The notes beneath the pieces were generated by a model. It did no database searches and was not told the DNA's origin. It saw nothing but the letters and a program-made list of their open reading frames with translations. The translations under genes and the position numbers were made by a program. Shown here in pieces: positions 45,549 to 49,980 of a stretch of DNA of 64,000 nucleotides. The stretch is taken from assembly GCF_000304335.1 (NCBI RefSeq), contig NZ_CAJF01000011.1:1-64000 (forward strand). Reading direction: 5' to 3'. Numbering within the stretch: the stretch's first letter is position 1; each line of letters starts with the position of its first letter. This stretch comes from Microbacterium yannicii PS01 (GTDB lineage Bacteria; Actinomycetota; Actinomycetes; Actinomycetales; Microbacteriaceae).

Positions 45549-46406
45549 GTGAGAGCATCGAGTGTGCGGACGGTGCGGGGATTGTGGGGGTCGTCGCACC
45601 CCGGACCGACGCTCGTCGTGACCGCTCTGGCCCTCGCCCTCGGCCTGTCGATCGGGCTGGAGCCATGGCGACTCGTCCTGCTGACGGTCGCGGTCTTCGC
45701 CGGACAGCTGTCGATCGGCATCTCGAACGATGCGCTCGACGCGGCCCGCGATCGCGCGGTCGGCCGCACCGACAAGCCCCTCGCCCGCGGCGATGTGAGC
45801 CTTCGGGCCGCGTGCGTGGCGGCATCCGTCTGTCTTCTCCTGGCGCTCGCGCTGTCGGCACCGCTGGGATGGCGGATGCTGGCGGCCCATGCCCTCTTCC
45901 TCGGATCCGCGTGGGCGTACAACGCCGGGCTGAAGTCCACGCCGCTGTCGCTCGTGCCGTTCCTGGTGAGCTTCGGCACGTTCCCGTCGCTCGCGACGCT
46001 GTCGGCTACCGAGCCCGCGTTCGCTCCCGGCTGGGCCTGGGTCGCGGGAGCCGTGCTCGGCGCCGCGGTGCACTTGACCAACGTGCTGCCCGATCTCGCC
46101 GACGATGAGCGCACCGGCGTGCGGGGACTGCCGCACCGGCTCGGGCCGCGCGCCTCGGCGGTGATCGCTGCGATCGCGTTGATCCTCGGTGCGGTGGCCG
46201 TGCTGCTCGGGCCGGCGGGCGGCGACATCGCTGCGGTCGGAGTGCTGTCGTGGGTGTTCTTCGCCGCCGTCGTGGCGGTGGCGGTCGCCACGGTCGTGCT
46301 GGCGGTCGTGCGGCCGCCGTCGCGCGTACTGTTCCGTCTCGTGATGCTCGCGTCGCTGCTGCTCGCCGCGCAGCTCGTGGCCTCGGGCGGAGCACTCGCG
46401 GGCTGA
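45549..46406 (+). CDS. UbiA-family prenyltransferase
   Basis: The product has 285 residues with about nine membrane segments. The two Asp-rich motifs that hold the prenyl diphosphate via Mg2+ are NDALDAARDRAVGRTDKPLA and NVLPDLADDERTGVRGLPHR. Such enzymes prenylate aromatic or quinone acceptors in the membrane. The GTG at 45549 is the first start free of the clpB region; GTG 45564 is an alternative. It faces the type III polyketide operon (46750-49980) across a repeat-filled gap, so it may act on its product. Confidence 0.85.
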   Translation: MRASSVRTVRGLWGSSHPGPTLVVTALALALGLSIGLEPWRLVLLTVAVFAGQLSIGISNDALDAARDRAVGRTDKPLARGDVSLRAACVAASVCLLLALALSAPLGWRMLAAHALFLGSAWAYNAGLKSTPLSLVPFLVSFGTFPSLATLSATEPAFAPGWAWVAGAVLGAAVHLTNVLPDLADDERTGVRGLPHRLGPRASAVIAAIALILGAVAVLLGPAGGDIAAVGVLSWVFFAAVVAVAVATVVLAVVRPPSRVLFRLVMLASLLLAAQLVASGGALAG

Positions 46407-46749
46407 GCTCGCTTCGCTCGCCCGGTCGGTCCCAACAGGTCGACCGGCCTTCTACAGGAGGTTCGACCTCGCCGATCTCCTGTGAAAGCGCGGTTGACCT
46501 GTGCAACGGGCGCCCTTCCCGGCTCTGCCCCGGGTTGGACTGAGGCCGCCCCGCGAGGCGAAGTCACGGCGGCGCCGGTCGTGCCCCACAGGTCAACCGG
46601 CCCTCCACAGGAGCTTCGTGCGCTCAAGCCTCCTGCGGAAGCCTGGTTGACCTGTCGGCGAGCCAGCGGGGGGGGGGTTTCACGCAGGCCGCAAGGGCTC
46701 ACGCAGGCCGCAAGAGCGCACGCATTCCGGGAGGGCTCACGCAGGCGGG
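46407..46749. repeat. 343-bp intergenic repeat field between convergent genes
   Basis: No gene is seen. Two similar hairpin units lie at 46435-46503 and 46588-46655; each is bounded by ACAGGTCRACC and GGTTGACCTGT with an inner ACAGGAG/CTCCTGY pair. A run of ten G (46668-46677) follows, then a 19-bp tandem repeat TCACGCAGGCCGCAAGGGC (46680-46750, three full copies and a part). The last repeat supplies the first base of the stop codon of the FAD gene. Confidence 0.85.
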
Positions 46750-47883
46750 TCACGCGTCGGCGTCGAGGCCCATCGTGTACGCGTGGGCGAAGAGCCGGCT
46801 CGCGGGCGGGGTGAGCATCGCGCGCACCGCGGTGCGCCGTGTCACGTCGAGCGCGCGGGGGAGTGCGCGCCCCAGGGCGGTGTTCACCGCCGCGAGTCGT
46901 CCCGCCGCCCGCGCCGAGGCCACCCGCCGGGCCTCCCATCGGCGAAGCTCGGCGTCCGGCGCCCGCCCGGTGCGCGTCCACTCGGCCAGCAGCGGGGCGA
47001 GCGTCGCGGCGTCGAGCAGCCCGAGGTTCATGCCCTGGCCGCCGATCGGGCTCACCTCGTGCGCGGCATCGCCGATGACGAACACCCGTCCGTTGCGCAT
47101 CCGCGGCGCCACCGCACGACGCACCCCGAACGACGAGACCTCGGCGGGTTCGGCCTCCTCGCCGCGCCGGGTGAGGGCCGTCCGCATGCGCTCGACGCGC
47201 GCCGCCGGGTCGGCGTCGCCGCCCGGCGGGTCCCAGGTGACGAACCGGCGCCTCCCGCCCGGGAGCGGGAAGGACTCGAGCACCCCGGCTCGGTCGAGGT
47301 GCACCACGGCCACCTCGGCGTCGGCGCGGGCGCCGGTCTCGGCATCCGTCATCAGATAGCGGTCGCGGTACTCGCGCACGGCGATCGCGCCAGGCCGGTA
47401 GACGAGGTCGCGTCCGCCGGATCCGGATGCCACGACCACCAGTCCGCTCGTGCGCTCGACGGGGCGGCCCAGAACTCCCGCCCGCAGGTGCACGCCGTTG
47501 GGTCGGGAGAGGAGCGCGGTGACGTGCGCGCCGCGCAGCGGCTCGGGCGCGCCTTCTGCGAGCACGGCCTCGGTCGCCGCCTGCGGAAGGGTCGCCACGA
47601 ACGGGAACCGCGTCGACAGCCGGTCGAACCGCACCGTGCCGAGCACCCGCCCGCCCGAGCGTGCCTCGCCCCGGCGCACCCGCACCGCGCCGTCGAGCAG
47701 TCGCTCCGTCACGCCGGAGTCTTCGAGGGCTGCCAGCACGGGGGCATGGACCCCGATCGCGCGCGATCCGTCGCCGGGCTCGGGCCGCCGCTCGAGCACG
47801 TCGACCTCGACGCCGCGGCGCGCGAGCTCGCCGGCGAGCAGCATGCCCACGGGGCCCGCGCCGACGATGGTGACCTCAGCCAC
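46750..47883 (-). CDS. FAD-dependent monooxygenase (aromatic hydroxylase-like)
   Basis: The product has 377 residues. The FAD fold starts AEVTIVGAGPVGMLLAGELA (GxGPxG) with the acidic end VLERRPEPGDGSR, and the second FAD motif is VFVIGDAAHEVSPIGGQGMN (GD motif). It is a group A flavin monooxygenase, expected to hydroxylate an aromatic ring with NAD(P)H and O2. In the srs operon of Streptomyces griseus such a protein (SrsC) hydroxylates an alkylresorcinol. GTG 47883 is the start; a degenerate copy of this start region lies just upstream. It is the third gene of the type III polyketide operon. Confidence 0.88.
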   Translation of the reverse strand: MAEVTIVGAGPVGMLLAGELARRGVEVDVLERRPEPGDGSRAIGVHAPVLAALEDSGVTERLLDGAVRVRRGEARSGGRVLGTVRFDRLSTRFPFVATLPQAATEAVLAEGAPEPLRGAHVTALLSRPNGVHLRAGVLGRPVERTSGLVVVASGSGGRDLVYRPGAIAVREYRDRYLMTDAETGARADAEVAVVHLDRAGVLESFPLPGGRRRFVTWDPPGGDADPAARVERMRTALTRRGEEAEPAEVSSFGVRRAVAPRMRNGRVFVIGDAAHEVSPIGGQGMNLGLLDAATLAPLLAEWTRTGRAPDAELRRWEARRVASARAAGRLAAVNTALGRALPRALDVTRRTAVRAMLTPPASRLFAHAYTMGLDADA

Positions 47884-48116
47884 GGCCGCGCCCGACTTCT
47901 GCCGGTTCGCGGGGCAGGTCGCGCCGCTTCCCACGCGCTGTGCCCGCAGGACCTGCCCCCCGAGCAGTGGCGCTGCGGGGTTCGCGATGTTCCGGGGGCG
48001 GTTCCCGCCGCATCCTGGGCGCCGTAGCAGCAGGACGCGTCCCCCGAGCACCGCGCCGACGATGGGGACGGATGCCGCGGCTCATGGCCCTGACCTCAGC
48101 CACGGCCGCGCCCGAC
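47871..48116. repeat. Degenerate duplication of the FAD gene start region
   Basis: The 26 bases at 47871-47896 are repeated exactly at 48091-48116, both reading GTGGCTGAGGTCA on the minus strand. Behind the outer copy, after a 25-base insert with the clade palindrome half, CCATCGTCGGCGCGG follows as in the real gene. The ~200 bases between also contain two related GC-rich segments (GCTCGGGGG...GTCCTGC). It separates the methyltransferase stop from the FAD start. Confidence 0.7.
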
Positions 48117-48800
48117 GGCGAGCAGGCGGAAGGGTGCCGGCTTCTCGACCCGCCACTCATCCGACGCCCTCTCGGCGAGCGCGCCCGCCAGCTCGGCGCG
48201 TGTGAAACTGCGGCGGATCGAGCGCAGGCCGTCGGTCCGCAGGAAGGTACCCGGCGCCAACGGGGTGATGCCGGCGGTATAGAGCGCATAGGCGAGGCGG
48301 CTCCGCTCGATGTCGCCGTGCAGCACCAGACCCCGCGACAGCTGCAGGGACTCCGCCGCGAAGTCCGAGAGCTCCGGACCGAGGTGGTGCAGCACGTGAT
48401 TGGACAGCACCACGTCGAACCGCGCGCCCTCGTCGAGGAGGGTCGCGGCATCCGCGCACCGGAACCTTACGGTCTCGGGCAGCTCGCGCTCCACGGCGAC
48501 CTCGTGCGCGCGGGGATCGGGGTCGACTCCCGTCCACGTGACGTCGAGCCCGTCGCGGTCCGCGAGCGCGGAGAGGCGTGCGACGAGGTCGCCGCCGCCG
48601 GCGCCCAGATCGAGCACGTGCGCGGGTCGCCCGAGCGATGCCAGGTACGGCGCGAGGGTGGTGCGGTACACCGTCCCCCAGCCCGACACGAGCCGGTTCA
48701 CCGTGCCGAAGCGGCGCAGCGTCGCCTTGAGCCGGCGGGCGTCGCACTCGGGGTCGTCCATGAGCTCGACGACGGCCAGATCGCGCACGGCGAGGCTCAT
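48096..48800 (-). CDS. SAM-dependent class I methyltransferase
   Basis: The product has 234 residues. Motif I is VLDLGAGGGDLVARL with the acidic VDPDPRA end of strand 2; motif IV is FDVVLSNHVLHHLGP. It is a small-molecule O- or C-methyltransferase, the counterpart of SrsB in the Streptomyces griseus phenolic-lipid operon. It starts 16 bp after the type III PKS stop and no terminator is seen between them. Its stop (GGC TGA) originally overlapped the GTG of the FAD gene, before the duplication described at 47871-48116; that order is inference. Confidence 0.88.
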   Translation of the reverse strand: MSLAVRDLAVVELMDDPECDARRLKATLRRFGTVNRLVSGWGTVYRTTLAPYLASLGRPAHVLDLGAGGGDLVARLSALADRDGLDVTWTGVDPDPRAHEVAVERELPETVRFRCADAATLLDEGARFDVVLSNHVLHHLGPELSDFAAESLQLSRGLVLHGDIERSRLAYALYTAGITPLAPGTFLRTDGLRSIRRSFTRAELAGALAERASDEWRVEKPAPFRLLAVGRGRG

Positions 48801-48816
48801 CGCGTCACCGCCGCGG

Positions 48817-49980
48817 TCATGCGCGAACGGCCAGGACAGGGGCGGCCTCAGCCGCGGCCACCGTCCGACCCGCGGTCGTGCTTGCGCGTTTGGTCATGAG
48901 CGCCGACTCCACGGTGAGCCCGGGGCCGAACGCGAGGCCCGCCACCCGCGCGCCGTCGGCGAGCGTGTCATCGTGCAGCAGCTCGCGCAGGATGAACAGG
49001 ATCGTCGCGCTCGACATGTTCCCGTAGTCGCGCAGCACTCCGCGCGACCGCTCGAGCGCGGCCGGGTCGAGCTCGAGCCCCGTCTCCACACGGTCGAGCA
49101 CACTGCGTCCGCCAGGGTGGACCGCCCAGGCATCGGGGGCATCGTCCAGGCCTACGAAGCGGTCGACGGCGGCGCGGATCTCACGCCCGATGATGCGCGG
49201 CACCTCGGCGGAGAGCACCATCTCGAACCCGTGATCGCCGATGGTCCACACCATGTCGGTCTCTCCCTCGGCGGTCAGGGCGGTGCCGAAGCGGTCGAGG
49301 TCGAGACCGCCGGCGTCGCGTGCACCCTCCGAGCCGGTGACGATCGCGGCCGCGGCCCCGTCGGCGAAGACGGATGCCGCGACGATCTGCTGCGGGTCGG
49401 CCGACGCCCGGATGTGCAGCGAGCACAGCTCGACGCAGACGACCAGCACGACCGCGTCGGGCTGCGCGTCGGTGATGCGAGCCGCCAGCCGCAGTCCGGG
49501 CAGGGCGGCCGCGCAGCCGATGAAGCCGAGGTGATAGCGCTCGGTCGTGGTCGGCAGTCCGAGATCGCGCACCAGCCGGTAGTCGGGGCCGGGCGCGAAG
49601 AAGCCGGTGCACGAGACGGTGACCACGTGGGTGATGGCGGATGCCGCGAGCCCGGCATCCGTGAGGGCCTGCCGCGCCGCCTCGGCGCACAGTCCCGGTG
49701 CCATGCGGGTGTACAGGTCGTTGCGCGGTCCGGTCGTCGGCGCGAGCACGACCCGCTCCGCGTCGAGGAATGCCGGGGCGTCCGGCGCCGGCGGCAGACC
49801 GGCCAGCTCGGAAAGCACGGTGTGCCGGTGCTCGATCGCTGAGGCGTCGAACACGGCCTGGATGCGCCGCCGCGTGAGCCGGTCCACGCCCGGCTGCGCG
49901 GCGAAGAGCTCGCGCACGCCGTCCTGCGGAAGCCGGGTCGGCGGAACCGCGGTGCCGATGGAGACGATGCGGGCCGTCAT
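48817..49980 (-). CDS. Type III polyketide synthase
   Basis: The product has 387 residues. The catalytic triad is complete: Cys156 in YHLGFIGCAAALPGLRLA, His288 in DAWAVHPGGRSVL and Asn321 in LRDYGNMSSATILF. The chalcone-synthase-family front THVVTVSCTGFFAPGPDYR is present. It condenses malonyl-CoA onto a starter acyl-CoA to give alkylresorcinol-, pyrone- or similar aromatic products. The start is ATG 49980; TTG 49992 is possible. It leads an operon with a methyltransferase and an FAD monooxygenase, as in srsABC, and faces a UbiA prenyltransferase. Confidence 0.93.
   Translation of the reverse strand: MTARIVSIGTAVPPTRLPQDGVRELFAAQPGVDRLTRRRIQAVFDASAIEHRHTVLSELAGLPPAPDAPAFLDAERVVLAPTTGPRNDLYTRMAPGLCAEAARQALTDAGLAASAITHVVTVSCTGFFAPGPDYRLVRDLGLPTTTERYHLGFIGCAAALPGLRLAARITDAQPDAVVLVVCVELCSLHIRASADPQQIVAASVFADGAAAAIVTGSEGARDAGGLDLDRFGTALTAEGETDMVWTIGDHGFEMVLSAEVPRIIGREIRAAVDRFVGLDDAPDAWAVHPGGRSVLDRVETGLELDPAALERSRGVLRDYGNMSSATILFILRELLHDDTLADGARVAGLAFGPGLTVESALMTKRASTTAGRTVAAAEAAPVLAVRA

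Follow-up and report, generated by a model that had tools for sequence, protein, structure and literature searches.

In the 64,000-nucleotide stretch of Microbacterium yannicii PS01 DNA analysed here (hereafter 'the window'), four genes probably encode a phenolic-lipid pathway like that of the agq genes of Actinoplanes missouriensis, with the tailoring enzymes exchanged. A type III polyketide synthase (PKS), a methyltransferase and a flavin enzyme face a UbiA-family prenyltransferase, and the assignment of this UbiA to the PKS pathway is strongly supported by how the genes are distributed and linked across genomes. The likely product is a prenylated, methylated, hydroxylated 5-alkylresorcinol. 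Directly established are the gene content, the conserved active-site residues, the folds and the lasting partnership between this UbiA and type III PKS. The four genes are as follows.

45564..46406, plus strand: UbiA-family membrane prenyltransferase, 280 aa (alternative start GTG 45549; PF01040 90.5 bits)
46750..47883, minus strand: FAD-dependent mono-oxygenase of the aromatic-hydroxylase type, 377 aa, GTG start (PF01494 137.7 bits)
48096..48800, minus strand: class-I SAM methyltransferase, 234 aa (NF004851, PRK06202, 258.6 bits; PF13649)
48817..49980, minus strand: type III polyketide synthase, predicted alkylresorcinol former, 387 aa (PF00195 and PF02797)

All four reading frames of the initial annotation were confirmed in place, with the PKS, methyltransferase and FAD genes in that order on the minus strand, and the family matches support its account of a type III PKS operon that also encodes a methyltransferase and an oxidizing enzyme. 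The PKS gene runs from an ATG at 49980 to a stop at 48817 and is spaced 16 bp from the methyltransferase gene, which in turn lies 212 bp from the FAD gene; this second spacing is wide, given that 40 of 50 named four-gene relatives have less than 60 bp between the matched parts. The UbiA gene ends at 46406 and converges on the FAD gene across a 343-bp gap, and the alignment of relatives favours a start at GTG 45564 over the previously proposed GTG 45549, 15 bases upstream. The neighbouring genes that were scanned, which encode a Clp-type ATPase, an MFS protein and HTH and AraC-type regulators, include no isoprenoid gene. A palindrome 5′ of the PKS (AGAAGAA-NN-TTCTTCT) was rejected as unconserved, its best match in 18 relatives being 9 of 16 positions.

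The PKS is the sole PF00195 match in its genome (PF00195 110.6 bits, PF02797 86.1 bits). Its catalytic triad, Cys156-His288-Asn321, is invariant in 31 of 31 near relatives and 18 of 18 sequences of a wider set, and Trp245 is present in 31 of 31 and 17 of 18, respectively. We take this residue to occupy the position of ArsB Trp281, having placed it by hand via chalcone synthase Gly256. Because of the family, the triad and this resorcinol-directing Trp, we infer closure to a 5-alkylresorcinol ring and predict the enzyme to be alkylresorcinol-forming; its best sequence match is Steely1, presumably an alkylresorcinol maker in vivo. The fold comparison (Z 48.5 to 4b0n, about 48 to PKS11 and Steely1) was undiscriminating, as the 50 matches listed all have Z of at least 46.3 and lie within about 2 of each other, and the table was rejected as a guide to product, on which it says nothing. 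That the PKS instead makes alkylpyrones, with the tailoring differing accordingly, seems to us quite improbable: PKS11, an alkylpyrone enzyme by its PDB title, and PKS18, which we take to be another, do appear among these closely spaced folds, but the Trp in every near relative and the Steely1 match both point to resorcinols. Moreover, PMC5916927, which with PMC9927152 is a source of the Trp281 rule for this position, places PKS11 itself among the Trp-bearing resorcinol formers in the text available.

The operon had been equated with srsABC of Streptomyces griseus, which stands as to gene order and role: srsABC and pkqABC share with the window the PKS–methyltransferase–FAD order, the Trp rule and the phenolic-lipid logic. 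For the enzymes themselves the equation is not supported. The window methyltransferase is a class I enzyme (NF004851 258.6 bits against a cut-off of 243) whose Pfam matches at E <= 0.01 are class-I families only, ICMT (PF04140) being absent, whereas SrsB is placed in the ICMT family by the relevant portion of PMC6669644 and the counterpart gene in an srs-type operon (L089) matches ICMT at 100.1 bits; an srsABC identity by methyltransferase descent was therefore rejected. The window FAD enzyme is a distant relative of the SrsC-like kind, 23% identical to the one such sequence compared (from L089, an srs-type stand-in for S. griseus SrsC), which matches best with the GG-reductase family, whereas the window enzyme matches best with mono-oxygenases and finds polyketide oxygenases, rifampin mono-oxygenase and p-hydroxybenzoate hydroxylase, among others, in solved chains. 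Srs-type PKS sequences are 28–32% identical to the window PKS, and srsABC and pkqABC are described without a UbiA in the accounts available, whereas in the window a UbiA faces the operon. The acid of the 'DG' motif is replaced in the window FAD enzyme and in all eight other UbiA-positive Microbacteriaceae sequences examined, and the enzyme may therefore be no hydroxylase, which is the weak point of our best explanation.

As expected of a UbiA-superfamily member, the prenyltransferase combines a pair of Asp-rich motifs with the helical fold of these enzymes. The acids of NDxxDxxxD and NxxxDxxxD are invariant in 39 of 39 sequences and, because a sequence search of solved structures gave weak matches only, folds were compared: an AlphaFold model (pLDDT 93.6) matches 6m31, a DGGGP synthase, at Z 22.6 and two archaeal UbiA homologues at Z 19.4–20.9. 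These matches were rejected as evidence on the acceptor, which the fold does not tell. In the tree, the UbiA sequences of all three operon types described below form one group of 32 sequences with moderate support (85/87), four of them from PKS-free genomes, apart from MenA, CtaB, CrtEb and E. coli UbiA. The same genome carries MenA-, CtaB- and CrtEb-like genes on other contigs (labels read from sequence and neighbours, and for MenA also from the tree). Given the separate tree position and these other copies, the window UbiA was rejected as MenA, CtaB or CrtEb. For it to be any unrelated housekeeping or carotenoid prenyltransferase, convergent with the operon by chance, is highly improbable. 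The gene does lie on the strand opposite to the operon, and in many Microbacterium loci it adjoins a Clp gene, but it is also linked to the PKS in Nesterenkonia, Clavibacter, Serinibacter and further cases without a Clp match in the fetched flank, and the MenA-, CtaB- and CrtEb-like genes elsewhere in the genome argue against it, as does the co-occurrence with PKS when set beside a CrtEb control.

In an order-level sample of 248 genomes, a PKS was present in 65 of 65 UbiA genomes and 48 of 183 others; for CrtEb, the control UbiA-family enzyme, the corresponding counts in the same 248 were 49 of 89 and 64 of 159 (Fisher tests on such counts treat related genomes as independent). UbiA and PKS lie at most 10 kb apart in 45 of the 65, in three orientations, and are not within 10 kb in the other 20, some of which are fragmented assemblies. 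The link is looser in a phylum-level sample of 326 genomes, where a PKS accompanies UbiA in 26 of 35 genomes and is absent from the other nine. In a large-genome genus, probably Streptomyces, UbiA was found in 64 of 150 genomes, and part or all of a PKS lay within about 1.5 kb in 29 of the 30 best-scoring UbiA loci. These genome searches scored the best first-look candidates only. Together with the PKS found in the genomes of all 80 named loci described next, the counts support the suggestion of the initial annotation that UbiA joins the PKS pathway.

The 80 named UbiA loci are the best 80 of 534 confirmed, found via two conserved peptide motifs. Among these best 80, all four window-type genes occur in the fetched flank of 50 loci, 48 of them in the conserved arrangement with PKS–methyltransferase–FAD converging on UbiA; the two exceptions are divergent (L210) or have all genes on one strand (L225). 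The other 30 lack a PKS in the fetched flank and have one elsewhere in the genome, beside an ICMT gene in 25 (24 of which also have an SrsC-like gene) and beside a window-type methyltransferase in five. Other families of the order carry true srs-type operons with the same UbiA family adjoining, and such operons are also found in another genus of the class. Some relatives' operons include a geranylgeranyl-reductase-family gene and an IPP isomerase: two loci (L270, L271) have a one-strand operon UbiA-GGR-PKS-ICMT-SrsC, and a third (L099) has the same with the isomerase added. The same UbiA family thus accompanies three tailoring sets, of the window, srs/pkq and los/agq types. Genes of relatives were called with a simple script that missed some (UbiA is uncalled in L274, L275, L277 and L282), and the presence or absence of the main genes was therefore checked by tblastn where conclusions depend on it.

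These distributions also bear on whether the end product is prenylated at all. The locus might make an srs- or pkq-like unprenylated, methylated alkyl-(hydro)quinone serving as envelope lipid or electron carrier, with UbiA acting on a different acceptor. Within the genus UbiA was found in 18 of 35 genomes and is absent from 12 of the 30 with a clear PKS match, so sister operons do without it; PMC9927152 derives polyketide quinones from a three-gene pkq operon, and neither 'prenyl' nor 'UbiA' occurs in the text of that paper available; and UbiA and PKS are apart in the 20 order-sample genomes mentioned above, in part through fragmented assemblies. Set against this are the unbroken co-occurrence in the order sample and among the best 80 of 534 loci, the repeated adjacency in three operon types, including one-strand operons that hold both UbiA and PKS, and the precedent of agq as it is summarized in later papers. 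We consider an unprenylated end product unlikely.

The original agq study is reportedly that of Awakawa et al. in 2011. The agqA-D genes yield alkyl-O-dihydrogeranyl-methoxyhydroquinones, according to citations in PMC10896814, PMC7692728, PMC4044012 and PMC9967187, and this sole characterized relative has a membrane O-prenyltransferase and a dihydrogeranyl group in its product. The losA locus of Micromonospora endolithica contains UbiA, a methyltransferase, an acyl-CoA-dehydrogenase-type flavoprotein and a PKS (PMC7587189, Table 1). In agq and los, as in the window, a type III PKS of the alkylresorcinol kind is paired with a membrane prenyltransferase, and the window holds the type III PKS, UbiA-type prenyltransferase, methyltransferase and flavin enzyme presumed to make up an agq-type cluster. 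Likeness to agq was judged on its published description and on los-like sequences, and the presumption that agq has the los gene set comes from the order of the los genes and the name of the agq product. In one los-like locus (G480) the UbiA is 46% identical to that of the window and belongs to the same tree group. The decorating enzymes differ: in place of the PRK06202 methyltransferase and PF01494 mono-oxygenase of the window, the los-like locus encodes a different class-I methyltransferase and an Acyl-CoA_dh protein, and the two methyltransferases match different Pfam models best. The window UbiA gene runs towards the FAD end of the operon; that of the los-like locus is divergent from the methyltransferase gene.

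The agq comparison tells against the 'menaquinone-like' product proposed initially, since this closest published pathway points to a short, O-linked prenyl group in preference to a menaquinone-type chain. We doubt that C-prenylation with a long polyprenyl chain yields a second menaquinone-like respiratory quinone. A quinone pathway would indeed have the same parts, namely an enzyme to make the aromatic ring, a UbiA, a methyltransferase and a flavin hydroxylase, and the UbiA fold is near those of DGGGP synthase and archaeal UbiA homologues, but the one characterized relative, as described in the sources available, O-prenylates and has a dihydrogeranyl group in its product.

Other published operons resemble the window in part. 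The hidABC (hierridin) genes and planctomycete methyltransferase–oxidoreductase–PKS operons have a PKS, a methyltransferase and an FAD oxidoreductase like the window, but in another gene order, and 'UbiA' is absent from the available text of PMC10896814, which describes them. The portion of PMC8086630 available reports a prenyltransferase in one cyanobacterial cluster. In Gephyromycinifex aptenodytis, a UbiA assigned to angucycline formation adjoins an srs-type PKS–ICMT–FAD operon whose tailoring set differs from that of the window, according to the relevant section of PMC8779670. For Microbacterium itself, PMC7438953 describes type III PKS clusters of types A–D, with a PKS in 79% of analysed genomes, and the available main text does not contain 'prenyltransferase'. 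Our literature search, which also missed the 2011 agq paper, brought to notice no paper on a window-type operon with UbiA and no report of a product for such an operon.

Because the agq product is already published, the logic of the window is a known one and the locus a variant of it. In the agq-like pathway that we favour, the PKS would load a fatty acyl-CoA, extend it with malonyl-type units and close the chain by aldol chemistry to a 5-alkylresorcinol. Hydroxylation of the ring by the FAD enzyme would give a hydroquinone or quinone, to which the class-I methyltransferase would add a methyl group. The membrane UbiA would prenylate the ring system with a prenyl diphosphate as donor; if agq is a guide, the donor would be C10 and the attachment to a phenolic oxygen. 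A geranylgeranyl-reductase-type enzyme whose gene lies outside this locus may afterwards reduce the prenyl chain. We infer each chemical step, as well as the step order, the prenyl length, the O- or C-attachment and the membrane role, whether redox or as an envelope lipid.

The analysis links a gene cluster common in Microbacterium with a specific class of lipids and presents this UbiA family as a frequent partner of type III PKS in actinobacteria, following an agq-like recipe with different decorating enzymes. It also suggests that many apparent three-gene srs or polyketide-quinone operons may have an overlooked fourth gene. More tentatively, and with the odds in our view somewhat against it, the actinobacterial type III PKS 'polyketide quinone' might, wherever this UbiA occurs, be a two-tailed lipid with an acyl-derived chain and a prenyl group, and so belong to a class of isoprenoid hydroquinones or quinones made without the shikimate pathway, in which PKS and UbiA are constant and three methyltransferase-plus-flavoprotein sets are arranged around them. 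If so, studies of polyketide quinones as electron carriers should seek prenylated masses, and the swaps of methyltransferase and flavoprotein around the PKS–UbiA core would provide a naturally occurring set of variants in which to test the function of the prenyl group.

The four genes reported in the initial annotation, which had proposed an srsABC-like type III polyketide synthase (PKS) operon facing a UbiA that could add a prenyl chain, are all present in the window (reading frames checked), which lies in a high-GC genome of 3.95 Mb:

45564-46406, plus strand, UbiA-family prenyltransferase
46750-47883, minus strand, FAD enzyme
48096-48800, minus strand, methyltransferase
48817-49980, minus strand, type III PKS

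We regard it as very probable that these four genes form one pathway, and our best guess at its product, a prenylated, methylated and oxidised alkylresorcinol, seems likely. The proposed likeness to srsABC held in part: the gene set stands, but the methyltransferase is a class I enzyme that matches NF004851 above its cut-off, with no ICMT match in the profile search. The FAD protein has its top scores with mono-oxygenases and polyketide oxygenases, and the predicted structure of UbiA is a confident UbiA fold, with both Asp-rich motifs in all 39 rows compared. A ‘DG’ motif with its Asp is a feature of flavin aromatic hydroxylases. This Asp is replaced in the window FAD enzyme and in eight other UbiA-positive Microbacteriaceae rows, and is retained in both f9/f14 rows and in three of four UbiA-negative rows; the window-type enzyme may catalyse an altered reaction.

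The PKS carries the Cys156-His288-Asn321 triad. In fold comparison, the structure predicted for it (mean pLDDT 87.9) scores Z ~48 against Ectocarpus PKS1, M. tuberculosis PKS11 and Steely1, and plant enzymes follow so closely (Z 46-47.5) that the product is not told by the fold alone. Trp245, present in 31/31 near and 17/18 wider rows, occupies what we take, from a placement made by hand via chalcone synthase Gly256, to be the position of ArsB Trp281. The accessible portions of two papers tie Trp281 of ArsB to resorcinol closure (PMC9927152, PMC5916927).

Among 58 genomes surveyed, the window's included, 35 belong to the same genus; 18 of these carry UbiA, with a PKS on the same contig in all 18 and at <2.5 kb in 17. 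Twelve more same-genus genomes carry a PKS (51-57% identity) without UbiA, a count that leaves out G004 for its weak match only (E 4.6e-4). In the one exception to close spacing (G006, loci L122/L123), UbiA lies ~20 kb from the PKS on the same contig, and short-chain-dehydrogenase-like genes, identified by eye, adjoin UbiA; this separation appears to be either an insertion between the two genes or a rearrangement.

An order-level sample (248 genomes, E <= 1e-10) held 65 genomes with UbiA, from 13 families, and all 65 have a PKS, against 48 of the 183 without UbiA. The two genes are <=10 kb apart in 45 of the 65 (12 convergent, 29 divergent, 4 tandem), and apart or on different contigs in the remaining 20. 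As a control, a CrtEb-like prenyltransferase had a weak PKS link in this sample (49/89 with vs 64/159 without). The window genome's own CrtEb-like carotenoid prenyltransferase gene (C7:34533-35274, L127) is split over two frames, apparently by a frameshift or an assembly error. Across a phylum sample of 326 genomes, a PKS occurs in 26 of 35 UbiA genomes vs 49 of 291 others. No PKS was found at E <= 1e-10 in nine of the 35 (G363, G416, G438, G489, G505, G522, G532, G580 and G588, all actinobacterial), where the UbiA family may have another or older function.

Among 80 named UbiA loci, the best of 534 confirmed, those closest to the window's are from Microbacterium, so its source is almost surely a member of this genus. 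All four genes lie in the fetched flank in 50 of the 80, and each of the remaining 30 genomes carries a PKS elsewhere, above the Pfam cut-off. Four Agromyces loci (L165, L171, L185, L188) have UbiA without a PKS in the flank and a window-type PKS-methyltransferase pair elsewhere in the genome; in L185 a FAD gene still adjoins UbiA. The genes PKS-methyltransferase-FAD-UbiA share one strand in Microbacterium sp. SCN 70-27 (L225), as though the UbiA gene had been flipped to join the operon.

A single UbiA family occurs with three tailoring sets:

Type 1 (window): PKS, PRK06202 methyltransferase and PF01494 FAD enzyme, UbiA mostly convergent
Type 2 (true srs/pkq-like): PKS, ICMT (PF04140) and SrsC-like FAD enzyme, UbiA adjoining
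Type 3 (as the Micromonospora endolithica losA locus): UbiA, a third methyltransferase, an acyl-CoA-dehydrogenase-type flavoprotein and PKS

Of the 30 named genomes with no PKS in the UbiA flank, 25 have their PKS next to an ICMT gene. UbiA is present in 64 of 150 genomes of one large-genome genus, taken to be Streptomyces, and a PKS stands beside it in 29 of the 30 best-scoring fetched loci, some of which show no more than the near end of the PKS. In a UbiA tree with weak deeper forks and two long outgroup rows, types 1-3 fall in one 32-row group (support 85/87), apart from MenA, CtaB, CrtEb and E. coli UbiA, and seven linked type-1 rows form one group (support 100/99). Four rows from PKS-free genomes lie inside the 32-row group, which argues against a strict one-to-one function.

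Isoprenoid genes accompany some relatives' operons. A geranylgeranyl-reductase-family gene lies between UbiA and PKS in L270 (overlapping UbiA by 4 bases), L271 and L099, scoring 171.7, 152.5 and 142.7, respectively, of which only the first exceeds the curated cut-off of 158.8. IPP isomerase genes above cut-off occur in both loci scanned, as the last operon gene in L099 and adjoining the operon in L093, and L100 has a gene of this family. Such reductase-family and isomerase genes are what a pathway to a reduced prenyl group would be expected to contain.

Repeats lie between the window genes. An imperfect palindrome of 81 nt (CAGGTCAACC...GGTTGACCTGT) occurs twice between the UbiA and FAD stops (46422-46502 and 46575-46655), the two copies being 77% alike; with 22 matches in the same genome, spread over 13 places on 7 contigs, and similar copies in Microbacterium loci L154 and L174, it appears to be a dispersed REP-like family. 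At 47871-48116, ~195 extra bases between the methyltransferase stop and the FAD start are bracketed by identical copies of a 26-nt direct repeat and include, by eye, a further palindrome-like stretch (GGGGCAGGTC...GACCTGCCCC); the two genes are <60 bp apart in 40 of 50 named relatives (from the best 80 of 534 loci).

In working logic the window can be likened to the agq cluster of Actinoplanes missouriensis where, in the accessible portions of the reports, AgqA forms alkylresorcinols, which next undergo prenylation and hydroxylation (PMC10896814), the product being alkyl-O-dihydrogeranyl-methoxyhydroquinones (PMC7692728), and the enzyme of the agq work is classed with membrane prenyltransferases, with O-prenylation of a small polyketide (PMC4044012). 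We infer the roles of individual agq genes from gene order and product name. Phytohabitans is described, in the part seen, as having agqA-D orthologues, with agq-product masses absent from its cultures (PMC7692728). In the losA study, according to the available text, a promoter was inserted ahead of losA, and the alkylresorcinols detected were unprenylated, with branched and hydroxylated chains (PMC7587189). The window differs from the los/agq type by its tailoring enzymes and from srsABC by its methyltransferase. The Streptomyces polyketide-quinone operon is given as three genes, and neither ‘prenyl’ nor ‘UbiA’ occurs in the accessible text of that paper (PMC9927152); a UbiA beside an srs-type operon is in print, but assigned to angucyclines in the portion available (PMC8779670). 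More broadly, this UbiA family often accompanies type III PKSs in actinobacteria, those of many srs/pkq-type operons among them, a generalisation that a literature search of open-licence papers met in no report.
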